This document shows positions 1 through 37,149 of a stretch of 37,149 nt of DNA, in pieces. Under the pieces are notes generated by a model that did not search any database, had not been told where the DNA came from, and saw only the letters and a program-made list of their open reading frames with translations. Within the stretch, counting starts at the first letter, position 1; the number at the start of each line of letters is the position of its first letter. Source of the DNA: an uncultured Bacteroidota bacterium (GTDB lineage: Bacteria; Bacteroidota; Bacteroidia; Flavobacteriales; Flavobacteriaceae); the NCBI GenBank assembly GCA_902509675.1, contig CABWYN010000010.1, positions 1-37,149 on the forward strand, read 5' to 3'. The position numbers and the translations under genes were made by a program.

Positions 1-1329
1 TACCATCAGTCGTGGCTGAAGCTGCAAAATTGATCGCAGTAGGATCAATACAAGTAACAGCATCACCGTTACCATCATAATAATTTCCAGTACTTACCAC
101 TGTACCGTCAGCGTCTACAATTCGCCATTCGTTTTCACCAGGATATGTTCCTGAGTAGTTGTAAGATGCTGAAACAACATCTCCAAAAGAAACATCAGCA
201 GTAGAAACGGTAAGCCAGTCTGTACCTGATCCATCCTGAGTATAGTTCCCAACACTTGTACCATTGACTAAGAAGTCAATTGTGTTGCCGTTCCATGTAT
301 CCCCGTAGGTGTCTCTAATTTGTAAAGAAAAACTACAGTCAGATGAAGGATTAATAGATTCTGAAGCAAATAATATCTGTTGTATGTCCATTTCACCTGC
401 AGAAGCAGTAGCGCCATCACCTGCATTTTCTACTAATTGAAACCACCAGCTAGCCTGAACTCCTGACCAATTTGTTAAAGCTGTCAAATCAATTTCTACA
501 GTTTGAGCTTCAGCAGAATTAATAGCCATTTCTGATGTTGAAAATTCATTTCCACCACTTGGTGATACAAATGTCAATTTATTTTTAGGTGAATTATTTA
601 CAAGTGTAACTTGTACATACTTATAAGTATCTGCATCAACACTGTATAAACCTGATTGCTCTAGTTTTGGATATGGACTTTGAGCTGCGATATCCAAATG
701 CAATTCACCAGCAACTGGCTGAGACATAGTTACCCCGTTTGCACTAGTAAACCCTTCTGAATCAGAAGTGTTGTCAAAGGTGTAATCTATTCTTGCAGTA
801 GCAGGAATTGCCTCAACAATTTCAATATTATCTACAAAAATTTCACCTGAAAAAACATTTTGAGAATTTGAAGCAGACTCTTTAAATCTAAAATTGATAG
901 TGCCTACTGTCCCAGACCAATTTGCATTGCCTGACATGTTAATGTAATGGGTTACAAAATCAGCGTCATTCGCACTAATTCCGTCAAAACTTGTAAAAGA
1001 ATTTGACCCGTTAACGGTGGTAATTACCTGAACCCTAGTATTTCCTGTGGTGTTCTTAATTGTTAATGCTATATAGTTTCCGACAGAGGTATCTATCATT
1101 GCATCTGTATTTTTCATATTAGGATTTGCAGAGCCACCATTCCCATCATCATTTGGAGATGAAATCGTATACGTTGCGTACGTATCACCCGCAACTATAT
1201 TGGAATAGTTAGATCCAACAAAATTTTCGTCAGTTCCGTTAAAGTCCCATGGGGGAGCAGTCTGAGAAAACATTGTGAAGTTAAAAGATAGCAATAAAGC
1301 TATAGCAATTGAGTAAAGTTTATTCATAG
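1..1329 (-). CDS. Secreted multidomain protein, partial (C-terminus lies beyond position 1); CBM-like modules, then a DxYGDxW-type module, then the start of a DPTAxNF..ATTDG-type repeat
   Basis: Manual minus-strand translation from ATG at 1329..1327 (MNKLYSIAIALLLSFNFTMFSQTAPPWDFNGTDENF...) is open to the window edge (...CSFSLQIRDTYGDTWNGNTIDFLVNG...NGDAVTCIDPTAINFAASATTDG). It is absent from the ORF track because it has no stop in the window. Clear signal peptide. Confidence 0.85.
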
Positions 1330-1361
1330 TAAATAGTTTTTTGGATTAATAATTTAATGAT

Positions 1362-1898
1362 TTATTTTGAAATAGTTAAGTCGTCTAAGTAAAATTCTGT
1401 TCCCTTAGTCATATACCAGAATTTTACACCCTGATTATTACTATTTGATTTTAGATCGAAGGTGTGAGAGTATTTAGTCCAATCTTCAGTCAGTATAAAA
1501 TCCTTTCCTTGATAACTACCTTGAACATCAGACTGAATGACTACTTTCATCTTTCCATTCCCCCCTTTATTCTTAGCGTGAAAGGTAATTGTGATTGCAT
1601 CTCCTTCTTTACCCTTAAACTTTTGATTAAATTGTGAGCTTAGATGATAACCCTTGTCACCTAGCTGATGAGTTTCCACTTTGAGGGCCCTTTGACTGCC
1701 AGGGTTTGTATCAAAATCCTCAACCGAAAATGTAGCATCAGCACCATTACGTGTTACGCTATTCCACCACCAAAACTTACCCTCAGGGCTTACACCTTCC
1801 AAATTAGAATTCTTTAATTCAAATGTCTTTTGAGAAAATGAATCCGTGTAAAAAAATACCGCCATTAGAACTAGAGTAAATTTGATTGATTGTTTCAT
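1362..1898 (-). CDS. Secreted stand-alone carbohydrate-binding-module-like protein (CBM4/9-like beta-sandwich)
   Basis: Signal peptide; KGYHLSSQFNQKFKGKEGDAITITFHAKNKG...QSDVQGSYQG...WTKYSHTFDLKS...VKFWYMTKGTEFYLDDLTIS matches the N-terminal module of the GH30-like protein at 8956..11118. No catalytic domain or T9SS tail. Confidence 0.75.
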   Translation of the reverse strand: MKQSIKFTLVLMAVFFYTDSFSQKTFELKNSNLEGVSPEGKFWWWNSVTRNGADATFSVEDFDTNPGSQRALKVETHQLGDKGYHLSSQFNQKFKGKEGDAITITFHAKNKGGNGKMKVVIQSDVQGSYQGKDFILTEDWTKYSHTFDLKSNSNNQGVKFWYMTKGTEFYLDDLTISK

Positions 1899-1922
1899 GT
1901 TTGATTGTTTTATGAATTATTA

Positions 1923-4430
1923 TTATTGTTTTACTAATCTTAAGATTTTTAATTGTCCTGTATTTATGTCTTCAAGTCTTAAAAAATATAAGCCTGGTTC
2001 AAGACTTGAAATATTGACAGAAATCGAATTGCTTTCAAAATTATTTATACTGTCTATTTTATACTTTTTACCTAATATATTATATAAAGAAATATTTGAA
2101 TTTGAATAAACATTATGAATATTAAGTATATCGTTAACAGGGTTTGGAGATAGAAATATATTTTTAATATCGTTTTCCGAAATGGAAAGAGGGTCAACTA
2201 CAGTAACCTCAACCTGACTGGTTGTAGAATTTCCTGAGCTGTCAGAAGCTGTAAAAATAACCAAGTATAATCCAGTTGTTGATGTATCTATATTGTGAGA
2301 AATTTCATAGCTAACATTACCATCACAATTATCTGTTACTGTTGGAGGTTCGATATCATCTACATCAAAAGTCGAATTTATCTCATATTCATAATTGCAC
2401 CCTGACCCTCCACAATCTGATAATTCCATTACAGGTGGGGTCGTATCATTTGCACATTCATTAATGGTAAACTCATATGCTCCAATATCAACAACATCTC
2501 CAAAGTTTTCAAAATCAACTGCTGGTGAGCCTTGAATAACAAGAGAAAAATCATCAATATAATAGTCAGCCCCAACACCTGCTTGAACAGGTGGTCCTTT
2601 TACATACAAAAATAAATTATCAGAAATGTCATGTGTAAAATCTGCAGTTAACAAAGTCCATTCTTGGTCTGAAGCTTCGACTGGCTCGGATAAACTATAA
2701 TACTCATTTTCGTCAGTATCCTTAATTGTCAACTGAGTAGTTCCTGTTTCGCCTTCAGCTAACTTTACCCAAACATAAAATGTATATGTTTCGCCCTGAT
2801 CCAATAAATTATTTAATACAATTCTAGGGCTATGCCAATTTGCTGTTCGATCTGTTGTAAAAAGACATCTATCACCCGATAATGATTCATCAGATGTGGT
2901 TTCGATTGTAGACCCAAATGCAGTCCATCCGCCAGTTGCATTTTCAAAACTTGTTGATGAAATAGCGCTACCCTGAACAGGTCTGGGGTTTCCGTTAATA
3001 TCATGAGTTGGGCTGTAACTTGGATTGCCTGAATTTATCGCTGGTGAACTTTCTGTGATTGAAAAGTCTGTTCCCTCAATAGTCAATTCACCGTAAACAG
3101 TTTCTGGTGCTGACACAAAAAGAGGGTCGCTATTTATTAGATTATTGCTTTCGGTTGCTGGCCATGCATAAGTTCCATTAACAATTATATTGTCAACAGC
3201 TACTCTTGAGCCGTATACATTATTTAATTGCAAGGCTGAAAACTCATTGTCTCTAGTTACAATAATATTATTTACAACAGTGGTGTTCAAAACATGGTTA
3301 GCTTTAATACCTCCAACTTTTTGACCTCTGTGTGCTGGGTTTCCTTCAGCAACAGAAATATCTTGTATGATTTCATGAACCCCATTATAGTAAAGTGTAT
3401 TGTTTTGATAAATTGCGGAAGCGGAGTGAGAATGGTCGAAATTAATCCCATTCTTTCCATTATTCAAACATAAATTATTTTCAAATAAGAAAGTCCCGTT
3501 ATATCCAGGGTCACTACGAGTCACATATATTCCCTGACCGTCCCAAATAGATTGGAAGTTTGCAGTTCCATAATCCGGATTATTATTTCCTGAATTATCA
3601 GGTAATTGTGTTACATAAAAACGAATTCTATTCCAATTATTATAAACAATGTTGCCTCTAATAATCATTTTAATATCAGAAGTATTGTCTCCATTTTGAG
3701 CAATAGACTCAGCTAAAACAATAGCGCTTGAAGCAGAAGAAGTCCACCAGTTTGAATTATAAACTATATTATTTTCTATTAATATATGATCACTATCATT
3801 AAACCGAATGGCTGAACCACAGGTGTCATGAACAATATTATTTCTGATGATAATGTGATGATGAGCGCCATAGCCTCCCCAAATCCCTTTTCCTCCAAAA
3901 TAAGAGTGGTTATAATTTGTAGAATCATCTTCATCTTCAGCCATCTCAATTTTATAATTTCTGTCTGCTTCTGCCATATCATAATCAATATTTTGAGCTG
4001 GACCTTCAACTTCAAAGCCCTCAATAATTATATAATTCATATTATTAGAAATAACGATACCGCCTCTTCCGTCAAATTGTATTTTAGGTGTATCACCAGG
4101 ATAATTTCTTAATGTAATATATGCATCTTCAGTTCCCGATTTATTTATGGTAACTACATGCTGATTATTCATGTTCGTGCTGGTTGAAGGATCAACATTG
4201 CCGTAATTGTTATTTTGATAAACTCCATCCATAACATACACTGTTCCTCCAGCATTTACCATGGAGACTCCTTTGTTTATTGTTTTAAAAGGAGAATCAA
4301 TTGTTCCTAAATTATTATCTGAACCGTTTGAATCTGAAATATAGTAATCTTGTGCGCACAGTATTTGTAAGCCAAAAGATAACATTATAGCTAAAAAATT
4401 TCTTTTCAATGTTAATTTCCTAATAGACAT
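1923..4430 (-). CDS. Secreted right-handed parallel beta-helix protein (possible polysaccharide lyase) with inserted CBM-like module, HYR-like domain and T9SS C-terminal sorting domain
   Basis: DYYISDSNGSDNNLGTIDSPFKTINKGV...GGTVYVMDGVYQNN (DUF1565/PL-type N-terminus); HHHIIIRNNIVHDTCGSAIRF..ILIENNIVYN beta-helix rungs; SPAINSG..DINGNPRP and DIGAYEF tail motifs; C-terminal FLSPNPVNDILNIHN...LEPGLYFLRL T9SS tail. Confidence 0.8.
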   Translation of the reverse strand: MSIRKLTLKRNFLAIMLSFGLQILCAQDYYISDSNGSDNNLGTIDSPFKTINKGVSMVNAGGTVYVMDGVYQNNNYGNVDPSTSTNMNNQHVVTINKSGTEDAYITLRNYPGDTPKIQFDGRGGIVISNNMNYIIIEGFEVEGPAQNIDYDMAEADRNYKIEMAEDEDDSTNYNHSYFGGKGIWGGYGAHHHIIIRNNIVHDTCGSAIRFNDSDHILIENNIVYNSNWWTSSASSAIVLAESIAQNGDNTSDIKMIIRGNIVYNNWNRIRFYVTQLPDNSGNNNPDYGTANFQSIWDGQGIYVTRSDPGYNGTFLFENNLCLNNGKNGINFDHSHSASAIYQNNTLYYNGVHEIIQDISVAEGNPAHRGQKVGGIKANHVLNTTVVNNIIVTRDNEFSALQLNNVYGSRVAVDNIIVNGTYAWPATESNNLINSDPLFVSAPETVYGELTIEGTDFSITESSPAINSGNPSYSPTHDINGNPRPVQGSAISSTSFENATGGWTAFGSTIETTSDESLSGDRCLFTTDRTANWHSPRIVLNNLLDQGETYTFYVWVKLAEGETGTTQLTIKDTDENEYYSLSEPVEASDQEWTLLTADFTHDISDNLFLYVKGPPVQAGVGADYYIDDFSLVIQGSPAVDFENFGDVVDIGAYEFTINECANDTTPPVMELSDCGGSGCNYEYEINSTFDVDDIEPPTVTDNCDGNVSYEISHNIDTSTTGLYLVIFTASDSSGNSTTSQVEVTVVDPLSISENDIKNIFLSPNPVNDILNIHNVYSNSNISLYNILGKKYKIDSINNFESNSISVNISSLEPGLYFLRLEDINTGQLKILRLVKQ

Positions 4431-4442
4431 ATTGATATAAAT

Positions 4443-5876
4443 TTAGTCATTTTGAAATGGATCCTCATTAACAAAATCTCTCATTCTCTTTAGTTTAATT
4501 CTGTACTTAATTACCAGTTCTAAATTCTCTGGCAACTTAGAAATATCTTTGTTTTGTTTTTTATCATTCTTCATGTCATATAACATATTACCTAAATAAT
4601 TTTTCCCTTGAAAAAACTCAGTATATGAATAGCTTTCATCTATCACAGCCTCCCCTTGTTTGTATCTAGTATAGATTTCATTTTTTATTATTGTATTTGG
4701 ATTTTCAAGGACAGGTGTCAAGCTTTTACCCTGAATATAAGTTGGAGGGTCAATTCCTGCCAGCTCACACAAAGTTGGATATATGTCTACCAATTCTGTA
4801 AACGAATCTGAATTATCTGTGGTGCTATATTTTGAGGAAGATATAATAAGCGGAATTTGAACTGCCTCATAAAATGTACTGTGCTTACACCAAAATCCGT
4901 GTTCTCCTAAAAAATATCCGTGGTCACTCCATAAAACAATAGTTGTGTTTTCTCTCAATCCTGAATCTTCTAAGCCTTTGATTAAATTACCAATCATTGC
5001 ATCCATATAACTTACACTAGCGTAATAACCATGAATTAAATCTCTAGAGAGATTATTGTCTAGCAAACCATTTTCTGGAATTCCTAAATAATTTTTTCTT
5101 AATTCTGCTGAATTATGCTGAGCTTCGATTGCAATTTCTGGAGAATTTATAGGCTGGTATGTATTGTCAGCAAGTTTAATCTCATTATGATCATACATGT
5201 CCCAATATTTTTTTGGTTGAATAAAAGGAAGGTGTGGAGAGACATATCCTATTGCCATAAAAAATGGTTTTCCATTTTGACTAAACTCTTTAAATTTATC
5301 AATAGCCTTTAATGTAATTTTTCCGTCATTATAGACATAGTCGTCTACATCTGGGTACTCAATGATTGGGTTTTTTTTACCATATTCACCAGTCTCAGCG
5401 TTATCTCTAAGTTTTATAGATTCGGGATCTTGAAAATCTGCCTGTTGAGCTCCATTGTCTTTTTCTGTCCAGTGCTCTTGAAAATCATCTTTATGGTGAT
5501 AAATTTTTCCGTATGAAATGGTTTCATAACCGTTCTCTTTAAATATTTGGTTTAATGGAATAGCATTCGGAGCATCTACTGAGGCTCTTGTAGAAAAATC
5601 ATTAAACCTTTTTTCACTCGGTCTTATACCGGTCATAATACTTGCTCTACTTGCTCCACATACAGCTATATTTGTAAAAGCATTATTGAATTGAACCCCC
5701 TCTGATGCAAGCTTATCCATATTGGGGGTAATCATTGTTTCATTTTCATAATTGTATGAATTCATGGTTGGTCTTAAGTCATCAATTGAAATAAACAATA
5801 TGTTATGTTTTTTCTCAACTTGATCATTACATGACACAATAAATATTCCTAAAAAGATTAATAAAAATTTTTTCAT
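4443..5876 (-). CDS. Sulfatase, S1 family, iduronate-2-sulfatase-like (S1_7-like); predicted lipoprotein
   Basis: Formylglycine motif VCGASRASIMTG; metal site ISIDDLRPTMNSY; WSDHGYFLGEHGFWCKHSTFYEA; lipobox FLGIFIVSC. Confidence 0.88.
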   Translation of the reverse strand: MKKFLLIFLGIFIVSCNDQVEKKHNILFISIDDLRPTMNSYNYENETMITPNMDKLASEGVQFNNAFTNIAVCGASRASIMTGIRPSEKRFNDFSTRASVDAPNAIPLNQIFKENGYETISYGKIYHHKDDFQEHWTEKDNGAQQADFQDPESIKLRDNAETGEYGKKNPIIEYPDVDDYVYNDGKITLKAIDKFKEFSQNGKPFFMAIGYVSPHLPFIQPKKYWDMYDHNEIKLADNTYQPINSPEIAIEAQHNSAELRKNYLGIPENGLLDNNLSRDLIHGYYASVSYMDAMIGNLIKGLEDSGLRENTTIVLWSDHGYFLGEHGFWCKHSTFYEAVQIPLIISSSKYSTTDNSDSFTELVDIYPTLCELAGIDPPTYIQGKSLTPVLENPNTIIKNEIYTRYKQGEAVIDESYSYTEFFQGKNYLGNMLYDMKNDKKQNKDISKLPENLELVIKYRIKLKRMRDFVNEDPFQND

Positions 5877-5883
5877 TTTTAAT

Positions 5884-7539
5884 TTAATTTGAGGTTATTT
5901 CTGATGCTTTGTAGCCGATTCGAATTGCTCTCGCTGCAATTTTTTGATCTTTATTAAGCTCTATTGGCTTATGGTATAGATCCCAGTTTTCTGTACCAAT
6001 TTTATCGTCAATTTGAAATCCAATTGAGGCTCCATCTGTTGCGGAATTCAGCTCAAACTTTCCCTGGTTGTTAATGCTGAATATAACATTTTCTGTCACT
6101 GGCTGAATCATATTTGGCCAAAAAGATTTTACAATTTCGTTTTCAGGAATAAAGCCCTTGTCATCAATTTCTTTTTGCCATCTCTTTAGCTCAGATCTAA
6201 GTTGATCTATTTTTGATGAGTAAGAGGGATTATCTATTAAATTATCCACTTCATAAGGATCAAATTTAAGATCATAAAACTCCTCAACCGGTTTTGTTTT
6301 CATAAAAATATAAGCAGCATCACCTTGTAGTTTTCCTTTTGAATCCATCTCAATTAATTTTGAATTCATTGGTATTCTTTCTCTATATTTATTGCGATAG
6401 ATCAAAGGTAATTCTGGCATAAAATTTTTAATATAAACATACCTTCCATCCAATACTGATCTCTGCATGTCTGTACTCTCATCAAACCTGTCAGCAGTTC
6501 CAAAAGCATATTTCCTTGGCTCTTGTTCATATCGCCCGGCGATTGCTTTACCATCATAATGATTGGGCGGCTTAATATTTAATAAGGACAAAACCGTTGG
6601 TCCTAAATCCATAAGTGATACGATTCTATCATCAACTTTTCCTGCATTTTTTTTATCAGGATATCTAATAATAAGTGGCACATTAAGCCCACTATTTCCT
6701 ACTGCTCTTTTTTGCCTCAATAAATTACCCCCATGATCACTCCAAAACATAATGATTGTGTTTTCAAGGACTCCGTCTGACTCTAATTGATCCATTAATT
6801 CTCCAACTTTTCTATCCATAGCTTCAATGTTGGAATATTTTCTTGCGATATCCTTTCTGACCTCAGGAATGTCTGCAAAATAAGAAGGGATTATTACATC
6901 CTGTGGACTTACCGTTAATGGTTTATTACTTCTTTCCCATATCCTAGATTCATGAGTTAATAAAGTATTCCAAACATAAAAAAAGGGCATTCCATTTGGA
7001 GCATCTCTAAATGAAACCGTAGAAGATACTTCATCCCATGCGGTAAAGGGTGCGTTAAATTGGTAATCGCATTTAAAATTATTTGCACAATAATATCCTT
7101 CTTTCCTTAATATTTCAGTGAATGGCTTAACATGTGGCGGTGGGACAACCTCATATTCTGGTATGTTAAATCCAGCTTTGTCAATAACTCCAATATTCTT
7201 TTTGTGAGAAACTTCTTCTGGAGTTTTATAATTATGGTAATCTCCGGTTCTCATATTATTTGCCCCAAGTCTTGCAGAATACATCCCCGTAATAATTGAG
7301 AATCTGCTTGGTGCACAAACCCCAACAGTTGAGTATGCATTGGTATATCTAACTCCTTCAGATGCGAGTTTGTCTAAATTAGGTGTCTTAATAATTTGAT
7401 TTCCATAAGATCCTAATATGGGCCCCATATCTTCGCAACTAATCCAAACAACATTTAGTGGTTTTTTAATTTTCTCTGAATGATTAGAGCAGGAAATCAT
7501 AATTAAAAAAATGCAGAAATATATATATGTCTTAAGCAT
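5884..7539 (-). CDS. Sulfatase, S1 family, heparan-N-sulfatase-like, with C-terminal chitobiase-C-like beta domain; predicted lipoprotein
   Basis: GVCAPSRFSIITGM motif; WISCEDMGPILGSYG metal site; FWSDHGGNLLRQKRAVGNSGLNVPLIIRYPD. Start moved from the track's 7560 to the internal ATG at 7539 (MLKTYIYFCIFLIMISC lipobox), which removes the overlap with the upstream gene ending at 7541. Confidence 0.85.
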   Translation of the reverse strand: MLKTYIYFCIFLIMISCSNHSEKIKKPLNVVWISCEDMGPILGSYGNQIIKTPNLDKLASEGVRYTNAYSTVGVCAPSRFSIITGMYSARLGANNMRTGDYHNYKTPEEVSHKKNIGVIDKAGFNIPEYEVVPPPHVKPFTEILRKEGYYCANNFKCDYQFNAPFTAWDEVSSTVSFRDAPNGMPFFYVWNTLLTHESRIWERSNKPLTVSPQDVIIPSYFADIPEVRKDIARKYSNIEAMDRKVGELMDQLESDGVLENTIIMFWSDHGGNLLRQKRAVGNSGLNVPLIIRYPDKKNAGKVDDRIVSLMDLGPTVLSLLNIKPPNHYDGKAIAGRYEQEPRKYAFGTADRFDESTDMQRSVLDGRYVYIKNFMPELPLIYRNKYRERIPMNSKLIEMDSKGKLQGDAAYIFMKTKPVEEFYDLKFDPYEVDNLIDNPSYSSKIDQLRSELKRWQKEIDDKGFIPENEIVKSFWPNMIQPVTENVIFSINNQGKFELNSATDGASIGFQIDDKIGTENWDLYHKPIELNKDQKIAARAIRIGYKASEITSN

Positions 7540-7540
7540 T

Positions 7541-8959
7541 TTAATAATGTAATTTAACATAATCTTCTTCCTTTAATTTACCCGTTAATTCTTCTGAAAC
7601 TTTATTCCATTTTGAATTTTTATCTAGCGGATGTAGAGTTGGTTTTATAACTGATATTGGATTATCCAAGACAAAATCGTTTTGATTTTTCATCCATTTT
7701 TCTAAAACATCGGATAATCTATTTCTGTGCTGTGTGTAATCACTGTTGTTTATTAAATTGTTTTTTTGGTAAGGATCTTTTTTTAAATCATACAGTTCTT
7801 CATATGGGATATTCGGAAAAGATTCAGCAGCAATTTTAGCAAATTCATTTACCACTGGATTTTCCCCAAGATTTGAGTCAACTACTTCAATTGAATTAAA
7901 ATTTCTGATTAATTTAAATCTCTTTCCCCTTACCATTCGAGAAGGAAATATTTTACATTCCCTAATATTTTGTTTTGTTGCAACGCCAAAAACATATTCA
8001 TTGATTTGTTCATTACTACCCAATAAAGTTTTTAAAAAACTTTTTCCGTCAATACTATTGGGAATATCCGTTTTAGCAGCCTCTAGTAAAGTAGGCAGAA
8101 CATCAACAAGAGTAAGTAAAGTATTTGATTTCATATTAGATTTAATTTTACCCGGCCATCTCACCACAAAAGGAACTTGAAGGCCTTGTTCAGACAGACC
8201 CCATTTTCCACTAAGACCATGATCAGACGCATAAAAAAACATCGAATTATCTTTATGTCCATGCCTGTCAACCATTTGTAAGACTTCCCCTAACTGATCA
8301 TTGTCATCTTGAATGTTTTGATAATACCCTGGCTTATGATTACCAACATAACCAGGGTCATATGGCAATTTATATATGTCCTGTTTGCTATAATTAGTTG
8401 TTTTTGGATAGGGGCCATGTGGAAAATCTGAAGCAATAATTAAACAAAATGGTTTATTCACGTTTTTTAAATAATCGTCAATTTTTTCTAAGGGTAAATA
8501 TCTGTTGTTTACCTTTGGAAAATAGTGGGTCCAATTAAAAACCTTGTTGGGCTTTACGTGACTTTTTCCTGCCAATACAACTTCATAGCCAGATTTTTTA
8601 AGTAAAGATGTGATACTTTTAATATCTGGCTTTACTCCAATATGATTTGCTAAACATCCATTTTTTACAGGATACATTCCAGTAAAAATTTGAGATCTAC
8701 TAGGAGCGCAAATGGCCTGGCCGGTATAAAAATTGTCAAACTTAAGACCTTGACTAACAAGTAAATCAACATTTGAGGTTTCCACATTTGGATTTCCGTA
8801 AGACCCATAATCTAATTTATCTTGATCATCTGCTAAATAAAATATTATGTTTGGTTTTTCAGAAATATCATTGTTTAAATCGTCTTCATTAGCCAATAGA
8901 CTAGTTAGTAAAACCCCAGATAAAAAGGCAATAAAATAAATAGATATTTTTGGTCTCAT
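7541..8959 (-). CDS. Sulfatase, S1 family, with signal peptide
   Basis: AICAPSRSQIFTGMYP formylglycine motif; NIIFYLADDQDKLDYGSYGNP metal site; ASDHGLSGKWGLSEQGLQVPFVVRWPG. Confidence 0.87.
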   Translation of the reverse strand: MRPKISIYFIAFLSGVLLTSLLANEDDLNNDISEKPNIIFYLADDQDKLDYGSYGNPNVETSNVDLLVSQGLKFDNFYTGQAICAPSRSQIFTGMYPVKNGCLANHIGVKPDIKSITSLLKKSGYEVVLAGKSHVKPNKVFNWTHYFPKVNNRYLPLEKIDDYLKNVNKPFCLIIASDFPHGPYPKTTNYSKQDIYKLPYDPGYVGNHKPGYYQNIQDDNDQLGEVLQMVDRHGHKDNSMFFYASDHGLSGKWGLSEQGLQVPFVVRWPGKIKSNMKSNTLLTLVDVLPTLLEAAKTDIPNSIDGKSFLKTLLGSNEQINEYVFGVATKQNIRECKIFPSRMVRGKRFKLIRNFNSIEVVDSNLGENPVVNEFAKIAAESFPNIPYEELYDLKKDPYQKNNLINNSDYTQHRNRLSDVLEKWMKNQNDFVLDNPISVIKPTLHPLDKNSKWNKVSEELTGKLKEEDYVKLHY

Positions 8960-11118
8960 TCTTTAATTATTTTATGAATTACTTCTTTAAAATTATTTAA
9001 AGAATTGATTTTTATTAAGTATGTACCTTTTGCAAATGATGAGATATCTAATGTGTATTCGATTGAATCATTGATGTCAACTCCAGTTATTTTTGTGCCT
9101 TTTAAATCAAATAATTGAACTCTATAATTAGAGTGTTTTGGAAAAATTAAATTTATACGTCCGTGTGATGGATTGGGATATAATCTTACCTTGAATTCAT
9201 TTTCATTTATTTGATTAAAATCACCATTTGAAAGTGATTCATCAATGTTAAAAACAAAAGATGTTAAAGAAAGTTCAGGCAAGGTTGTTATAAAATACCT
9301 GTCATAATAATTGATTTCTTGCGTTCCAAGGGATGTGAATTCTTCTGAATCGTTATTAGTAGTTAGAATTCGCTCTACCGAAATTGCACCAAGTGGAATA
9401 TCCATCGAAAAGTCTTTTTCTTCGCCCTCGTTAAAAACTTGTAGTATGATTTTGGTATTGTCTTCTGAAATAAAAGCACCTGTATATATTTGATTGTCAG
9501 AGGAAGTATTTGATTGTATCAGACTATACCCTTTTTTGATAAGATTTGTAAAATGTTTAAATGTATAATACCTCTTTGGTAAAATAATTTCACCTACTGG
9601 AGTCCAGGCAACTAGACTAGAATATCCATCATTGTCCGCCTGCTCATAAAATAGGTGCATCATATACGCTGTCATTCCACCTTCATTAAACCCTCTTAAC
9701 ATCCACTTTATATAATTTGCTGCATCAGTCATTGACTGATCTGTACTGTTTAAGTTAGCTGATTCGGTAACCCAAACAGGTTTGTCATTTGATGCAATTT
9801 TTAATGCATTCCAATTTGCATTGTGATTTGCGTCTGCGTAGGTGTGCGTTCCTACCACATCAACCGCATTTTCAACCGCGCTGTTATTAAACATGCTATT
9901 TATGTAGTTTGTAGCTGATGTTGAAGAGTTTTGAGATTCTACTCTAAAACACTCTGGGGAAATAATCTTAATGTTATCTAGCCCTGAATTTGACAACCTA
10001 GCATTTAAGTTTATTAATATACTTGATAATTCTGAGGGTGTAGTATTCATGGACTCGTATGAAACCTCATAATCAGGCTCATTTGTAGGTGAAATTGCAG
10101 TGACTTCAATTCCATACCTAGACTCCATACCATTTAAAAATGCAACAAGAAATTCACTAAATTCTGATTCTCCTCCACTAATCAGAGTACCTCCACCATT
10201 ATGTTGGCCGTTGGTTTTAAGCCAGGCTGGGGCGCTGTTACAGTTACCGATTACGTGATCAAATCCATTAACACTTAAGTTAAAAGCATTTTGTAAGGCT
10301 TCACCAATATATCTAGTTCTCCAACTATTTGGATCACTATCATATCTTGTCCAATCTAGTTGTGTTTCATCTAAGCTATAAGGATCATCATTATCATTTT
10401 CAGGCTCTAAGTCGTGATAAACAAAAAACCTAATCATGTTAACCTCAAGGTCATTAAAACAATATTGTTCAATCTGCTCTCTAAATGAGTCATTTAATAC
10501 ATAGAGATCCTCAGTTCTTCTTTTAATTCCCGCTCCAAAACCATCAATTGTTTGAAATTTAATGTCCGGATCAAAAGTAACCCTTTCACCTGGTGAGACA
10601 CTAACCTCATCCAAAAAGTAGGTTACATCAGATTGCATGTACCAAAACCTAACTCTATTGTTATCGCTAGAATTTTCAACAGTGAAGGTGTGGGTATATC
10701 TTTTCCATTGATTGGTTACCCAAATATTTTGACCCTGATAACTTCCAGACACGTCAGATTGAAAAACCAATTTCATCTGCCTAGAATCTGCTCCAGAAAT
10801 TTTAGCATAAAAAGTCACTGTATACTTTTGGCCTGCCAAAACTTGAAAAGGATATTCGCTTTTAGAGCTAACATGCCATCCGTTTGCCCCTAATGAATGT
10901 ACTTCGCACTTCAAAGCCTTTGTACTACCCTGAACCAAATTATCTGTTTCAATTGAGTATGTTGCATCCCCACCCTCATTAGCTTGATGGCTCCAATATT
11001 GAAATTCATTGTTTTCAATATCCTCTAAGAAACCATTAGCAAGTGGAAGTTGGTTCTGGGAGGCAAGTGAAAGTATAGAAACACTCCAAAAAAATAATAT
11101 CTTTTTTATCATCTTCAC
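8956..11118 (-). CDS. GH30-like glycoside hydrolase (clan GH-A TIM barrel) with N-terminal CBM-like module and T9SS C-terminal domain
   Basis: FQTIDGFGAGIKRRTEDLYVLND; acid/base candidate in ISPTNEPDYEVS; nucleophile candidate in KPVWVTESANLNS; C-terminal VRLYPNPSHGRINLIFP...FAKGTYLIKI. Family-level call is by motif reading only. Confidence 0.75.
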   Translation of the reverse strand: MKMIKKILFFWSVSILSLASQNQLPLANGFLEDIENNEFQYWSHQANEGGDATYSIETDNLVQGSTKALKCEVHSLGANGWHVSSKSEYPFQVLAGQKYTVTFYAKISGADSRQMKLVFQSDVSGSYQGQNIWVTNQWKRYTHTFTVENSSDNNRVRFWYMQSDVTYFLDEVSVSPGERVTFDPDIKFQTIDGFGAGIKRRTEDLYVLNDSFREQIEQYCFNDLEVNMIRFFVYHDLEPENDNDDPYSLDETQLDWTRYDSDPNSWRTRYIGEALQNAFNLSVNGFDHVIGNCNSAPAWLKTNGQHNGGGTLISGGESEFSEFLVAFLNGMESRYGIEVTAISPTNEPDYEVSYESMNTTPSELSSILINLNARLSNSGLDNIKIISPECFRVESQNSSTSATNYINSMFNNSAVENAVDVVGTHTYADANHNANWNALKIASNDKPVWVTESANLNSTDQSMTDAANYIKWMLRGFNEGGMTAYMMHLFYEQADNDGYSSLVAWTPVGEIILPKRYYTFKHFTNLIKKGYSLIQSNTSSDNQIYTGAFISEDNTKIILQVFNEGEEKDFSMDIPLGAISVERILTTNNDSEEFTSLGTQEINYYDRYFITTLPELSLTSFVFNIDESLSNGDFNQINENEFKVRLYPNPSHGRINLIFPKHSNYRVQLFDLKGTKITGVDINDSIEYTLDISSFAKGTYLIKINSLNNFKEVIHKIIKE

Positions 11119-11128
11119 TAAGAATTAC

Positions 11129-11169
11129 AAAAAATTTAGCCCGTATATAATTTCAAAATACGGGCTAAA
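11129..11169 (-). terminator. Hairpin plus U-tract between susD and the GH30-like gene (intrinsic terminator or attenuator candidate)
   Basis: Plus strand: AAAAAA (11129-11134) TTTAGCCCGTAT (11135-11146) ATAATTTCAAA loop ATACGGGCTAAA (11158-11169). Perfect 12-bp stem; read on the minus strand it is followed by TTTTTT. Confidence 0.75.
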
Positions 11170-11175
11170 CAAAAT

Positions 11176-12705
11176 TTAATCTAAATCTATTAATTCATTT
11201 GTGTTAATCTCTATCAAAGGAATTGGTAAAGACATCACTTGAGAAGGGTCTGTACTGAGTGTTAAATCAACAGACGGATTATGAATTGGATTATTATTGT
11301 GAAATAAAATTGTTCTGTTTAAAAAGTTGTCAAAACCTCTTCTTCTGTTGTTATGCGCATCTTCTCCTTCACCTAAAACCTCAAATCTGTACTCGTACAT
11401 AATTGCTTCTCTAAATTCTTCTTGTGTTCCAAAATAAGCACCTTGAGGACTCATTCCAACTCTGCTCAGTAACTCGGTTACAAAACCTAATTGTTGTCCG
11501 TTATCTAATTCGTTTGAAATTTCAGCTAACATAATCAATAGTTCACCATATCTGTATATTATTAAGTTTTGATCTCCATATTGATTACTGTGTTGTGTGT
11601 CTTTTTCGGTAAACTTAAAAAAGTACGGGTGAGCTTTAGAAAAATTAGGTCTATTAGGATTTGAGGGGTAAACTGTTACAGTATTACCATTATCCGCTCT
11701 TTGATAAGAGTGTAAATAAGTTCCTTCTAATCTGGGGTCATTTGGATAAACTGATTCGTGATGGTTATATACGTCCGCATGTACACGTAACCAGCCAAAA
11801 TGTTGTCCTAACTTATATTTCCAGGGGGTAAAATTTCTTCCCATTTGTGAGTTTGCTGCATCTTGACTTATTTGTAGTTCCCATATTGATTCAGAAGAGT
11901 TTTCATTGGTGTCAGTGAATAAACTTCCATAATCTGCAACTAAGCTATACTGACCGTAAACTTCAATAGCTTGCTCATAAGCTAGCTGCCAATAATCCAA
12001 TTCAGTAAATCCGTCTGCTCTTAAATCTGGATTTGTAGCCAATGTCATATATACTTTAGCTAATAACATATTTGCTGCATACTGCTTTGGGTATCCGATG
12101 CCGCTTGAGCCATTTATTAAAGTCAATGCCATCTGAGCATCAGCAATAATTTGAGCATAAACATCTTTAGACGAAGTAGTAGCTAAATGTAAATTTTCAT
12201 TGTTTGGAAGAGACAGCCAAAGCGGTACATCTCCCCAAAGCCTCGTTAATGAAAAATATGACCATGCTCTCACAAAATATGCCTGACCGGCTATGTCATT
12301 AAATCCAGATTCGTCTGAAGTTGTCGGTTCATTCACAGTTACAATGTTGTGTATTGCGCCATTACATCGAGCTATGGCAGAATATACTCCGCCCCACATA
12401 GCCTCTGTGTCTGCATCATAAGTGGGTTTTAAGGAGAATAGATTAGCGTTATTTATATTATTTACATTATTTCCGCCGTTTTTACCTGCGGTAAATAAAC
12501 CTGAAAATCCATTGATAGCAAATATTCTTCTTTCCTGGGCATTGTAGCTAGTTAGGGCTTGATATATACCATCAAGCGCTCCCTTAGCTACACTTATATC
12601 TGAATATACCGCGTTAGAGTCTAAAAATATTGGGTCTTCGTCTAAATCACAGGAAGTGACAAAAAAACCAATTATTGATAATAATATTATTTTAAAATTT
12701 TTCAT
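11176..12705 (-). CDS. susD: SusD/RagB-family outer-membrane glycan-binding lipoprotein
   Basis: Lipobox SIIGFFVTSCDLDEDP; FLDSNAVYSDISVAKGALDGIYQAL; GQAYFVRAWSYFSLTRLWGDVPLWL; RYGELLIMLAEISNEL. Immediately downstream of susC. Confidence 0.95.
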   Translation of the reverse strand: MKNFKIILLSIIGFFVTSCDLDEDPIFLDSNAVYSDISVAKGALDGIYQALTSYNAQERRIFAINGFSGLFTAGKNGGNNVNNINNANLFSLKPTYDADTEAMWGGVYSAIARCNGAIHNIVTVNEPTTSDESGFNDIAGQAYFVRAWSYFSLTRLWGDVPLWLSLPNNENLHLATTSSKDVYAQIIADAQMALTLINGSSGIGYPKQYAANMLLAKVYMTLATNPDLRADGFTELDYWQLAYEQAIEVYGQYSLVADYGSLFTDTNENSSESIWELQISQDAANSQMGRNFTPWKYKLGQHFGWLRVHADVYNHHESVYPNDPRLEGTYLHSYQRADNGNTVTVYPSNPNRPNFSKAHPYFFKFTEKDTQHSNQYGDQNLIIYRYGELLIMLAEISNELDNGQQLGFVTELLSRVGMSPQGAYFGTQEEFREAIMYEYRFEVLGEGEDAHNNRRRGFDNFLNRTILFHNNNPIHNPSVDLTLSTDPSQVMSLPIPLIEINTNELIDLD

Positions 12706-12734
12706 ATTTAAAGAATTTAGTTTTTTAATTTTTT

Positions 12735-15700
12735 TTAAAACCCAACATTAAGTCCTACAACAAAAGTTCTTGCATTTGCTCTTCCATTCCAATCCACTCC
12801 ATTTATAAGGCCGTTATATAAAAAGCTTGAAATTTCGGGATCGTATCCACTATAGTTTGTCCAAGTTATCAGATTTTGTCCTGCAATAAATAATTTTAAA
12901 TTACTTATTGAGTCTATATTGTTAACATCAAAGTCGTATGCAATCGTTAAATTACTCAACCTCAAATAACTTCCGTCCTCAATGATTCTGTCAGTCATAG
13001 CTGGTTGGCCATTTGTGGAATATCCAATCCTGGGATAAACATTTGTTTGAGCATCAGGTCTCCATGCATTAAAATACGCATCAGGTGCAATATTCAAATA
13101 GGTTAATCCTTCAGCATTATTTAATTGTAATAAATTTCCGTTTGCTATGTCATTACCATAAACTCCGTTAAAAAGAATATTGGCTGAAAGCCTCTTGTAA
13201 GTTAAATTAAAATTAAAGCCATATATAAAATCTGGATTTGGATTTCCTATAAATGTTCTATCGCTTAGGTCAATAATTCCATCTCCATTTTGATCAATAA
13301 TCTTTACATCACCAGGCGCCGCAAGGTTTCCAAAAACTTCTGGAAGGGCGTCTCCAGTTTGATAAATCCCGTCAGTTTCCAATCCATAAAATAAACTTGT
13401 TTCTTCACCTTCAACAAATACGTTGGCGGGGTATCTAAATAAATTACTTCTTGTTACTTCTGAACCAAAATAAAATCTTCTTTCCTCAGCAATTCCATCA
13501 ACATAAAACTCGTCCAACGGCTGAGAAGAAAGATCTGTGATTTTGGTTTTATTAATTCCTATGTTTCCTCCAAATGACAGAGTCAAATCCTGATTAGAAA
13601 TTAGGTCTGTGTTTAATGAAAGCTCAATACCTTTATTGGTGATTTCGCCTTTGTTAACCAAAATACTTTGAAACCCAGAAGACGTTGGAATACTAGCTCT
13701 TTGAAGTAAATCTTTGGTAGTCTTTTCATAAACATCAAGAGTTCCTGTGATTTTTTGATTCTTTGTGGCAAAGTCAGCACCGAAATTTAATTGCTCTGTT
13801 GTTTCCCAAGTCAAATCTGGGTTTGCTACATTCTGCAGTGCAATTGGAACATTTGTGCCTCCATCGGCATTTCCATAAAGATTAGCTGAGGCTCCATAAT
13901 TTGAAAGAGTTCCATACGATCCTATTCCGTGATTTCCTATTTGACCCCAACCACCTCTTAGCTTAAGTTCTTCAAATAATTTTAGGTCATTATTTTGATG
14001 AACATTCCATGCTAGAGCAAAGGATGGGAAAAAACCATACCTATTATTTTGTGCAAACTTTGAAACACCGTCTCTTCTAAAAGTAGCTGTTAAAATATAT
14101 GTGTTATCATATGTGTAATTAACCCTTCCAAGTAGAGAAAAAATTTGTTGATCACCCTTTATAAAAGTTAGAGGTCTGGTTACAACTTGACCAAAGGCTG
14201 GATTTTGAGTTGTAAACTGAGTAGTGACAAAATCCTCAACTGCATAAATATTATTATTAACTTTTCTAACATCATAAGTCACCCCTAAAACACTATTAAT
14301 TCGGTGTTTTCTTTTTAGTGTTCTGTTAAACCTTAAAAAGTTGTTTACCTGAAATGAGGAATTATTAAGACCTGTGATTTGCAGAGAGCCATTGGCATTA
14401 TTTCCTTGCCATGTAGTTGTTCCAAAAAATCTTCTTCTTTCTTTTGTCCTAATATTTCCACCAATTTTTACCTGATATCTAAGGCCTTGGACGGGCAATT
14501 TATATGTTAGTGCAAGATTTCCAATATATCTACTTTCCTTTGAAATATCTTCAAAATCATTAATCCATGAATAGGGGTTAGAAATATCTAAATCTTCACC
14601 AAAGTCTTCAAATTCTTCGGTAATTATGGGTCTAAATGAAATAACCTGTTTGATAAAACTCTGATTTGAACCCCCTAATAAATCTCCGCTTTCTGCAAAA
14701 TTAGTAGAGCTCAAATATCCACTCATTCTGGCCTCTAAAATTAACTTGTCATTTAGATCTTGATTAAAATTGATTCTCATATCTCCACTTTTAAACGACG
14801 AGGTGGGAACAATTCCCTGCTGATCATCAAATCCGGCAGATATATAATAATTTCCGTTGTCCGTTCCTCCTGAAACCGAGCCTCCAACTTTTCTGCTTAT
14901 GCCACTTCTGTAAATCTCATCTTGCCAGTGATAGGATTGAGCTGGTGTTTCTAAAACTGTTCCGTCTTCATCAATACTATAAATAGCATAATCATCGTCA
15001 ATAAAAAATCTAGGGTTAAGACCGTTTCCAGCATTTACTTCATTTACATAAGCCGCATAACCATAGGGGTCAAGAACATCATATTTCTTTGAAATGACAC
15101 GAACAGAGGTATTCGAAAATGCTTCTATATTCACTTTACCACTCTTACCTTTTTTTGTTGTTATAACCACAACACCGTTTGCGCCCCTAGATCCGTAAAT
15201 GGCAGTGGCAGATGCATCTTTTAAAACCTGAATACTCTCAATATCTCTGGGGTTGATTCCATTTAATCCGTTTTGACTTTCTTGTCCAATATTACCAACG
15301 CCGGCAGGCAATACATCTTCACCAGCAGAGGAAATAATTACGCCATCTACCACATACAAAGGTTCATTATTACCCCTTAAACTATTTGTTCCTCTAATTT
15401 TTACACTAATCCCAGACCCCGGATTTCCTCCGTTTTGTACCACTTGCACACCTGCTGCTCTTCCCTGAAGCAATTGATCTATAGAGTTAGACTGGTTTGC
15501 AACTTCTTCTTCAACTTTCACAGATGATAAAGATCCTGTAAGATCCTTTTTTAGTACAGATCCATATCCTATAACCACAACTTCCTCTAGTTGCTCTAGG
15601 TCTGGAAGCATCATTATACTCATTGTTTCTGTAGAGGAAACATCCGCTTCCTGGGTTGAATAGCCTAGGTATGAGAAAATTAACACTTTAGGCTTATCTG

Positions 15701-15884
15701 ACGGAATTGTTATAGAATAATTTCCGTCAAAATCACTAAGCGCACCAATGTTTGAATTTTCAACTGTGATATTTACACCAACTAGCGGTATATTATTTTC
15801 ATCGTTAACGGTTCCCGAAATCGTTTTCGTCTGTGTAAAAGCGAAAATTGGAAACAAAACAAATACTAAAAGTAGTTTTTTCAT
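12735..15884 (-). CDS. susC: SusC/RagA-family TonB-linked outer-membrane transporter
   Basis: Carboxypeptidase-regulatory-like N-terminus TISGTVNDENNIPLVGVNITVEN; plug EVVVIGYGSVLKKDLTGSLSSVK; GINPRDIESIQVLKDASATAIYGSRGANGVVVITTKKGK. Confidence 0.97.
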   Translation of the reverse strand: MKKLLLVFVLFPIFAFTQTKTISGTVNDENNIPLVGVNITVENSNIGALSDFDGNYSITIPSDKPKVLIFSYLGYSTQEADVSSTETMSIMMLPDLEQLEEVVVIGYGSVLKKDLTGSLSSVKVEEEVANQSNSIDQLLQGRAAGVQVVQNGGNPGSGISVKIRGTNSLRGNNEPLYVVDGVIISSAGEDVLPAGVGNIGQESQNGLNGINPRDIESIQVLKDASATAIYGSRGANGVVVITTKKGKSGKVNIEAFSNTSVRVISKKYDVLDPYGYAAYVNEVNAGNGLNPRFFIDDDYAIYSIDEDGTVLETPAQSYHWQDEIYRSGISRKVGGSVSGGTDNGNYYISAGFDDQQGIVPTSSFKSGDMRINFNQDLNDKLILEARMSGYLSSTNFAESGDLLGGSNQSFIKQVISFRPIITEEFEDFGEDLDISNPYSWINDFEDISKESRYIGNLALTYKLPVQGLRYQVKIGGNIRTKERRRFFGTTTWQGNNANGSLQITGLNNSSFQVNNFLRFNRTLKRKHRINSVLGVTYDVRKVNNNIYAVEDFVTTQFTTQNPAFGQVVTRPLTFIKGDQQIFSLLGRVNYTYDNTYILTATFRRDGVSKFAQNNRYGFFPSFALAWNVHQNNDLKLFEELKLRGGWGQIGNHGIGSYGTLSNYGASANLYGNADGGTNVPIALQNVANPDLTWETTEQLNFGADFATKNQKITGTLDVYEKTTKDLLQRASIPTSSGFQSILVNKGEITNKGIELSLNTDLISNQDLTLSFGGNIGINKTKITDLSSQPLDEFYVDGIAEERRFYFGSEVTRSNLFRYPANVFVEGEETSLFYGLETDGIYQTGDALPEVFGNLAAPGDVKIIDQNGDGIIDLSDRTFIGNPNPDFIYGFNFNLTYKRLSANILFNGVYGNDIANGNLLQLNNAEGLTYLNIAPDAYFNAWRPDAQTNVYPRIGYSTNGQPAMTDRIIEDGSYLRLSNLTIAYDFDVNNIDSISNLKLFIAGQNLITWTNYSGYDPEISSFLYNGLINGVDWNGRANARTFVVGLNVGF

Positions 15885-16090
15885 GAATAGTTAGTTTCAA
15901 ATTATTAAAAAACTAAATATAGCACTCTATCATCTTTTTTAAAACAAATTTGTAAAAAATGAACGTTGTTTTTAGTAGAACCTCAAAACTAATAGAAAAT
16001 CATTAGTAAATTCTCAAAATTGAAGCTTAAAAATATACTTTTAAAAAATATTTGATAAATTTTATTTGTCATTAAACTCTACATGTTTTT

Positions 16091-35083: not shown

Positions 35084-36424
35084 CTAGTTTTCCATTGAAA
35101 AATCTTCCATAAACTTAGTTGTATAATTTCCCTCAAGATAATCTTTGCTTTCCATGAGCTTTCTGTGAAACGGAATAGTTGTTTTGATGCCTTCAATCAC
35201 AAATTCATCTAACGCCCTTTTCATTTTATCAATTGCCTCCTGTCTTGTTTGGGCGGTTGTTATAAGTTTTGCGATCATCGAATCATAATTAGGAGGTATT
35301 GTATACCCTGAGTAAACGTGAGTGTCTATTCTAATTCCATGCCCTCCAGGTAAATGAAGGTTGGTAATTTTTCCTGGTGAAGGTCTAAAATTATTGTAGG
35401 GGTCTTCAGCATTAATCCTGCATTCAACCGAGTGTAATTGAGGCAAGTAATTTTTTCCTGAAATTTTTTGGCCACTAGCAACTAAAATTTGTTCTCTTAT
35501 CAAATCATAATCTATGACTTGCTCCGTTATCGGATGCTCAACTTGAATTCTTGTATTCATTTCCATGAAGTAAAAATTTCTGTTTTTATCCACAAGAAAT
35601 TCAACTGTACCTACGCCTTCATATTTAATATATTCTGCTGCTTTTACAGCGGCCTTACCCATTTTTTCCCTCAATTTATCAGTCATAAAGGGGGACGGAA
35701 CTTCCTCTGTTAGCTTTTGATGTCTTCTTTGAATAGAACAATCTCTTTCTGATAAATGGCAAGCTTTTCCTTTGGAATCGCCAACAATTTGAATTTCAAT
35801 ATGTCTTGGCTCTTCGATTAATTTTTCCATGTACATATCATCATTGGCAAACGCTGCTTTAGACTCAACTCTTGCTGAGTTCCATGCATCTTCTAGTTGA
35901 CTTTCTTCCCAAACGGCTCTCATTCCTTTTCCTCCACCTCCAGCACTAGCTTTTAACATGACAGGGTATCCTACTTTTTTTGCTAACTTTTTACAGTGGT
36001 CAAAAGATTCAATAATCCCTTGACTTCCAGGAACACAAGGAACTCCAGCCTCAATCATAGTTGCTTTTGCTGTGGCTTTATCTCCCATTTTGTTAATCAT
36101 TTCAGGGGATGCACCTATGAACTTTATCCCGTGTTCTTCGCAAATCTTTGAAAATTTAGAATTCTCTGAAAGGAATCCATAACCTGGATGAATGGCGTCT
36201 GCATTTGTAATTTCAGCAGCAGCAATAATATTAGAAATTCTCAAATAAGAATCTGAGCTAGGTGCTGGGCCTATACAAACAGCTTCATCAGCAAACTTAA
36301 CGTGTATACTTTCTGCATCGGCAGTTGAGTAAACTGCTACTGTTTGTATACCCATTTCTTTACATGTTCTAATGACACGCAGGGCAATTTCACCTCTATT
36401 GGCAATTAAAATCTTTTTAAACAT
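35084..36424 (-). CDS. accC: Acetyl-CoA carboxylase biotin carboxylase subunit
   Basis: [86 protein letters not shown]. Confidence 0.97.
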
Positions 36425-36437
36425 AATTATAATATAA

Positions 36438-36911
36438 TTAAGAAGGGTCTACTAAAAATAAGGGCTGGTCGAATTCAACAGGGCTTGAATCGTCAACAAG
36501 AATCTTTACAATCTTTCCTGAAACTTCAGACTCAATATCATTAAAAAGCTTCATGGCTTCAATAACACAAAGGACAGAGCCTTCTGAAATAACATCGCCG
36601 ACCTCAACAAAGGAGGGTTTATCTGGCGAAGGCTTACGATAAAAAGTTCCAATTATAGGCGATTTGACAGTGATTAAATTAGAATCCTCATCAGCGCTTG
36701 TGATATTATCATCAGCGGGGACGGCTTGCTGGGATGGGATCGTTGGAATAACGGTTTGAGCAGGCAAAACAACAGGCTCGTGTACAACAACTGGAGACTG
36801 GCCACCTGTGGTTTTGATGGTGATTTTAACATCTTCCATCTCAAGACTAACTTCACTTGCACCAGATTTAGCAACGAACTTAATAAGGTTTTGAATTTCT
36901 TTTATTTTCAT
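36438..36911 (-). CDS. accB: Acetyl-CoA carboxylase biotin carboxyl carrier protein
   Basis: C-terminal [73 protein letters not shown] (EAMKL biotinylation site). Confidence 0.97.
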
Positions 36912-36930
36912 AGGTTAAAGTAATTTGATC

Positions 36931-37019
36931 AAAAATCTAAACTTTTTTGGCAAAAAGCAACAAAAAACATTAAAAATGGCCCAAAAAGTTATAAAAAGCG
37001 GCAAAAATTAGCTAAAAAA
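36931..37019. other. Helically phased A/T-tracts (predicted intrinsically curved DNA)
   Basis: Tract centres at 36933, 36945.5 (T6), 36954, 36964.5, 36974, 36985, 36995, 37005, 37016.5; mean spacing 10.44 bp. Confidence 0.8.
36932..36964 (-). promoter_or_regulatory. Candidate accBC promoter (minus strand TTTG-N21-TAGATTTT)
   Basis: Plus-strand CAAA at 36961-36964 and AAAATCTA at 36932-36939; one mismatch to TANNTTTG; accB ATG at 36911. Confidence 0.4.
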
Positions 37020-37149
37020 GGTAAGATTATAAAATTTGAGTAAGGAAAGTAATAATGAGAATAACATAATTAGCATAAATTCATCAAATTGTAGGCAAAA
37101 TTGATTAAAATGAGAAATTATGTTGTAAAAAAGCATAAAAACTTAATCT

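Follow-up and report, generated by a model that had tools for sequence, protein, structure and literature searches.

Helically phased A/T tracts upstream of accBC in a Flavobacteriaceae genus look like a curved, UP-like promoter element

The main finding of this study is that an array of nine A/T runs, phased with the DNA helix and placed upstream of accB (36931..37019, minus strand), looks like a selected, built-in promoter-boosting bend and not like a product of chance. It probably serves RNA polymerase as an extended, intrinsically curved upstream element of UP-like type, which would form the upstream half of the accBC promoter. Little is known of how Bacteroidetes control fatty-acid synthesis, and the array is a concrete cis element at the committed step of this pathway. 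The window that we analysed is a whole contig (G000:C10, 37,149 nucleotides) of a Flavobacteriaceae draft genome that comprises 1.08 Mb and is 56% complete, in which genes were called by our scripts as plain open reading frames. The genes accC, for biotin carboxylase (35084..36424; Biotin_carb_N, CPSase_L_D2 and Biotin_carb_C domains), and accB, for biotin carboxyl carrier protein (36438..36911; Biotin_lipoyl domain, E 3e-20), lie on the minus strand at the contig end, and the nine-tract array is found between accB and that end. At the other end of the window, positions 1-16000 resemble a polysaccharide-use locus, with a SusC/SusD-like pair (12735-15884 and 11176-12705), three sulfatase-like genes (4443-8959) and a glycoside hydrolase-like gene (8956-11118). 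Assemblies break less than 240 bp upstream of accB in 3 of the 17 genus assemblies (at 37149 in the window, at the start of G020:C25 and at the end of G007:C11), perhaps because such an array resists assembly or differs between strains.

The geometry of the array is unusually regular. Nine A/T runs had been listed in the initial annotation, and re-deriving them gave the same positions, with centres spaced 12.5, 8.5, 10.5, 9.5, 11, 10, 10 and 11.5 bp (mean 10.44, SD 1.24) and a best-fitting period of ~10.25 bp, or 10.2-10.3 bp across 16 species. On the accB sense strand the runs are T-tracts, the sole exception being an A-tract at 36943-36948. The array has the defining features of phased A-tract DNA, namely A/T runs of at least 4 that recur about one helical turn apart over several turns. 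When phasing was scored as the resultant of tract centres at 10.5 bp over 90 bp, the array reached 7.71 with its 9 tracts—a value attained by 0 of 5000 dinucleotide shuffles (maximum 5.8)—and when identical runs were joined by randomised linkers, its phasing had P = 7.6e-4. Genome controls consisted of a 437-kb sample of stretches and a whole-genome pattern search. In the 437 kb of its own genome, the array is the top phased window, with a runner-up at 4.74 when runs of 5 or more are counted; this first rank and the shuffles bear out the earlier contention that the phasing goes beyond AT-richness. Four T5 tracts one turn apart, searched for in 21 genus genomes, matched the accB promoter in 8 genomes and gave only ~7 scattered matches elsewhere in the 21, mostly of low complexity. 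A wider regulon was considered and rejected, other high-scoring windows (in G032, G026, G017, G029 and the genome under study) being intragenic or located at unrelated genes. If runs of 4 or more are counted, the second-best phased window of the 437-kb sample (L046:19579, score 6.8) precedes a 113-aa open reading frame resembling ribosomal protein S6, which is likely rpsF.

Phased tracts of this kind are predicted to bend the DNA strongly. A wedge model with angles in the style of Bolshoy predicts that the array bends by 138.8 degrees over 84 bp (36943-37026), the highest value among 435,406 own-genome windows with a mean of 30.5 and a 99.9th percentile of 88.9. A synthetic A5N5 repeat gave 138.6, which equals the array, a 15-bp repeat gave 6.5, and a second, AA-only model likewise ranked the array first in the own-genome sample. 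The curvature prediction that the initial annotation had proposed as a check yielded a predicted peak above both genome and shuffled controls (rank 1 of 435,406 windows, with the shuffles compared by phase score). In every one of the 16 genus genomes the predicted bend at the accB promoter lies between 106 and 174 degrees, and in each of the five genus contigs examined curvature is highest at this promoter region. A- and T-tracts share their phase within ~1-1.6 bp, as curvature would predict, and the array would accordingly be curved in solution.

Conservation within the genus concerns the spacing of the tracts and not their sequence. Our sample comprised 21 genomes, 17 of which have accB and 16 of which also have DNA upstream of it; a T-tract array is present upstream of accB in all 16, and in all 16 it ends in TTG-N19/20-nAnTTTTG followed by ~20 nt to the ATG. 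Tract centres lie ~4.5, 14.5, 25, 35, 45.5, 56 and 66 bp upstream of the TTG (in L010 and L014 the script picked a different TTG, and the aligned one fits the common layout), and distances between tract pairs cluster at multiples of 10.3 bp. The tracts thus stand directly upstream of the inferred -33 element and in helical register with it (R = 0.92, 16 genomes); combined p-values for this register overstate the independent evidence because the species are related. Aligning related accB upstream regions, another check that had been suggested, accordingly showed tracts kept in register with the promoter. Linkers vary freely among species, spacing is constant, and on the sense strand T runs outnumber A runs by 135 to 20. 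Ordinary motif searches would miss elements that are kept by spacing rather than by sequence. A second and sometimes a third phased A/T array, with strong predicted curvature, is found ~170-320 bp upstream of accB in four relatives (G002, G009, G015 and G016; L184-L188, L179-L183 and L169-L173). Where the window ends, it contains two more A runs with a spacing of 9.5 bp (37127..37141, minus strand; 37127-37132 and 37137-37141), perhaps the start of such a distal array, as in relatives.

Where the array meets accB, the genus alignment points to a core promoter of Bacteroidetes type. The putative -33 element TTG (36958..36960, minus strand) is kept in 16 genus genomes, 48-50 nt before the ATG, and the putative -7 box GATTTTTG (36930..36937, minus strand) reads nAnnTTTG for a consensus TAnnTTTG (PMC9723704). 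Flavobacterial sigma-A promoters have a -33 TTG and a -7 TAnnTTTG ~17-23 bp apart; here TTG-N19/20 is present and the first T of the -7 box is missing. In F. psychrophilum, the mapped -7 box spans -12 to -5, with the consensus TAnnTTTG (PMC9723704), and the same placement predicts a transcription start at 36925 (minus strand), with a ~14-nt leader. The promoter reading of the initial annotation fits a core at near-constant distance from the ATG in 16 genomes, the core itself being a prediction from sequence. Its statement that most tracts lie upstream of the -33 element holds for six of the nine; the other three fall inside the putative core promoter, in the -7 box and spacer. The six upstream tracts, for which tract register and the curvature peak suggest the role of an UP-like curved element (36962..37019, minus strand), have their centres 4.5, 14, 25, 35, 45 and 56.5 bp upstream of the TTG in the genome under study. 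The alpha-subunit subsites of the E. coli UP element have a defined geometry relative to a -35/-10 promoter, and its consensus, NNAAAWWTWTTTTNNAAANNN, comes from outside the Bacteroidetes. If the -7 box has its F. psychrophilum placement and the TTG is at about -35 to -33, tract centres would be near -39.5, -49.5, -60 and -70, which would be close to the E. coli subsites when the shift from -35/-10 to -33/-7 is allowed for. At other promoters of the genus, tracts in the same register were not significant (R = 0.25, p = 0.075, with only 14 strict candidates that could be checked), and a general UP-like rule in the genus is unproven. As for the leader, a structured RNA was rejected, with no Rfam family found; the one match, to OmrA-B, was sub-threshold and fell within the coding sequence of accB.

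The array can also be traced across the family and through the loss of a gene. In other Flavobacteriaceae, the gene order is rpmF-fabH-accB-accC, and the phased tracts are found between rpmF and fabH. Mean predicted curvature is 98 degrees in 74 rpmF-fabH promoters versus 52 in 68 other upstream regions that come from these loci and have the same GC, and the two sets are separated with an AUC of 0.90 by curvature and 0.93 by phase score. No window is better phased than the rpmF-fabH region in the stretches scanned of G032 (200 kb), G026 (140 kb) and G029 (60 kb); strong arrays are also present at this promoter in culturable flavobacteria, for example of Winogradskyella, Cellulophaga or Polaribacter (arrays in L060, L061, L075 and L110), and the strongest case beyond the genus (G024) reaches 173 degrees with a unit close to TTTTTTACCA. 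Arrays at the rpmF-fabH promoter are weak or low scoring in Flavobacterium species, and several other families of the order have no comparable array, which suggests that the element is not indispensable. The E. coli accB upstream region has scattered runs only and no array. In the genus studied here, the canonical fabH is missing from the operon and the array directly adjoins accB. What is left of KAS III is a divergent 352-aa relative encoded elsewhere (e.g., G000:C24:12867-13913, L137), which scores below the TIGR00747 cut-off and has no array upstream, and an element of the KAS III gene was rejected on this ground. The single cell AG-319-A09 (L122) has its array between rpmF and accB, and G041 and G053, from another family, show the order rpmF-array-accB with 141-143 degrees; in all, at least three lineages have no fabH between rpmF and accB (L002-L018 of genus g1, L122, L253 and L262). 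Since accBC keeps the array even without fabH and the substitute KAS III gene is without one, the array belongs to accBC and not to fabH. It is an ancestral feature of the fabH-accBC promoter of the family. The leader of L122 contains, ~20-60 bp upstream of accB, the sequence GGTTTTACACGGGGAGTATCATTTTAAAATGGGAATATAA, and the 3' end of fabH in relatives is GFTWGSIYLKWAY; judging from this resemblance, GGTTTTACACGGGGAGTATCATTTTAAAATGGGAATATAA appears to be a degenerate fabH 3' end left over from the gene's deletion. L263 (G054), from another family of the order, has a tandem array between fabH and accB, starting from the accB side at ~50 and reaching to ~200 bp upstream, with units like AAAAAGCACCATTTTCTTT of ~20 bp in which an A-tract and a T-tract are half a unit apart.

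Several explanations compete with an UP-like element. It is possible, if unlikely, that a dedicated regulator or nucleoid protein reads the shape of the array—its narrow minor groove and bend—and sets accBC expression, maybe as a repressor or in response to fatty-acid demand. The array is nearly private to one operon, and the product of this operon is as a rule under tight control; the array is longer than the two subsites of a classical UP element, several relatives have a second, distal array, and the sense-strand T bias leaves room for such a protein. However, no word is conserved in the linkers across species, so no sequence-specific site is apparent; an HU/IHF-type protein was not found in the 56%-complete own genome. 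We give less credence to the bend being a physical sensor, by which the promoter would fire more in the cold and marine cells would adjust their supply of membrane lipids to temperature. Warming reduces A-tract curvature, which also responds to supercoiling; the output of some bent promoters depends on cold or heat, and accBC supplies malonyl-CoA for membrane lipids. Elements of both ideas might be combined in a dedicated, near-single-copy, order-level accBC promoter of unusually strong curvature that would sense temperature or supercoiling, or be read by a shape regulator, that would set carbon entry into membrane lipids, and that was kept through repeated losses of fabH; we put this forward only tentatively and think it rather unlikely. 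It is more doubtful still that the T-rich array mainly shields accBC or fabH from transcription that arrives from upstream, in the manner of a terminator or pause site after rpmF, with phasing as a by-product. T-tracts do predominate on the sense strand, and in L122, L128 and L268 the array follows rpmF directly with no obvious hairpin terminator. In most family members, however, a hairpin-plus-T terminator precedes the phased tracts, so that both are present, A- and T-tracts are mixed in the family with the same phase, and insulation leaves the helical spacing and the promoter register unaccounted for.

Two further readings have very little in their favor. That the array marks or belongs to the chromosomal replication origin, as AT-rich bent DNA at a GC-skew switch, is highly improbable. 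The cumulative GC-skew minimum does fall at accB in G016 (G016:C4, near 67.5 kb) and G009 (G009:C4, near 24.2 kb), and 7-11 kb from accB in G017 and G002. However, in the complete genome G034 the minimum is at 889,868, ~89 kb from accB, accB is at no skew switch in G039 and G048, strong arrays occur in G032 and G026 without a clear skew turn at the operon, and dnaA is on other contigs. No DnaA box within 1 mismatch was found near the array in 15 of 16 genomes, the single match being 706 bp upstream. We rejected the origin on the skew of complete genomes and the lack of DnaA boxes. The origin of the genus may nevertheless lie near accB, as the skew minima in the G016 and G009 contigs indicate. 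Least credible of all is a chance or compositional by-product: A/T runs abound in genomes of this kind and the region itself is AT-rich, but the shuffles (0 of 5000), the first rank among 435,406 windows, the phase kept in 16 species and the far lower matched-GC controls refute it at the level of sequence. A remnant or mobile repeat was also rejected, blastn against plasmids giving short, weak matches only.

We therefore return to an UP-like, curved upstream element. Six or seven A/T tracts would lie on one face of the helix, one per turn, continuing upstream of the Bacteroidetes-type core TTG-N19/20-nAnTTTTG, and this curved element would keep expression of the committed step of fatty-acid synthesis high. 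An alpha subunit with a C-terminal DNA-binding domain is present in the genus: PF03118 scored above cut-off in 12 of the 21 genomes, all of them incomplete, and was not found in the 56%-complete own genome. In Helicobacter pylori, phased A-boxes upstream of sabA bind RNA polymerase and affect output (PMC4081817). The subsite-like positions of the tracts, the alpha C-terminal domain in the genus and this precedent favor the UP-like reading. The first T of the -7 box, which deviates from TAnnTTTG, and the T-over-A bias of the sense strand, which curvature does not require, count against it. The transcription start, the contact with alpha and the sign of the effect, activation, are what we infer.

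Comparison with known systems shows similarities and differences. In the part of the literature that was covered, we found nothing on the accBC promoter of Bacteroidetes. For E. coli, UP elements and upstream A-tracts contacting the alpha subunit of RNA polymerase are described in work cited in PMC4081817 (Ross 1993, Estrem 1998 and Aiyar 1998). As in the E. coli UP element, the accBC array has helically phased A/T tracts directly upstream of -35/-33, and the tracts predicted to lie one and two turns upstream agree in position with the two alpha subsites, given the -33/-7 geometry. Unlike that element with its two subsites, the array extends over at least seven turns, has a T-rich sense strand and is found in a Bacteroidetes host, with a presumed alpha contact. 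The UP-like elements of H. pylori sabA are similar in their phased A-boxes upstream of the core, their predicted curvature and the proposed contact with the alpha C-terminal domain (PMC4081817). The difference is that sabA uses one long variable T-tract as a rheostat, which shifts alignment and gives phase-variable output (PMC4081817), while accBC, a housekeeping operon, has many short tracts whose register is the same from species to species. A static bend upstream of the core promoter is also shared with curved-DNA promoters as a class, which were reviewed by Perez-Martin 1994 (cited in PMC4081817), but the accBC bend is kept at one operon across a family, and no stronger bend is predicted in the part of the genome that was sampled. 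Genome-wide A-tract periodicity, which has been tied to nucleoid organisation, likewise involves A/T runs about one helical turn apart; it is a weak and dispersed signal (PMC3940949, PMC3431218), whereas the accBC array is intense, single and tied to one promoter. The array is thus a shape-encoded element traceable across a family and through gene loss, and its counterparts provide a natural series of promoters, alike in role but not in linkers, in which phased A-tracts can be studied outside E. coli.
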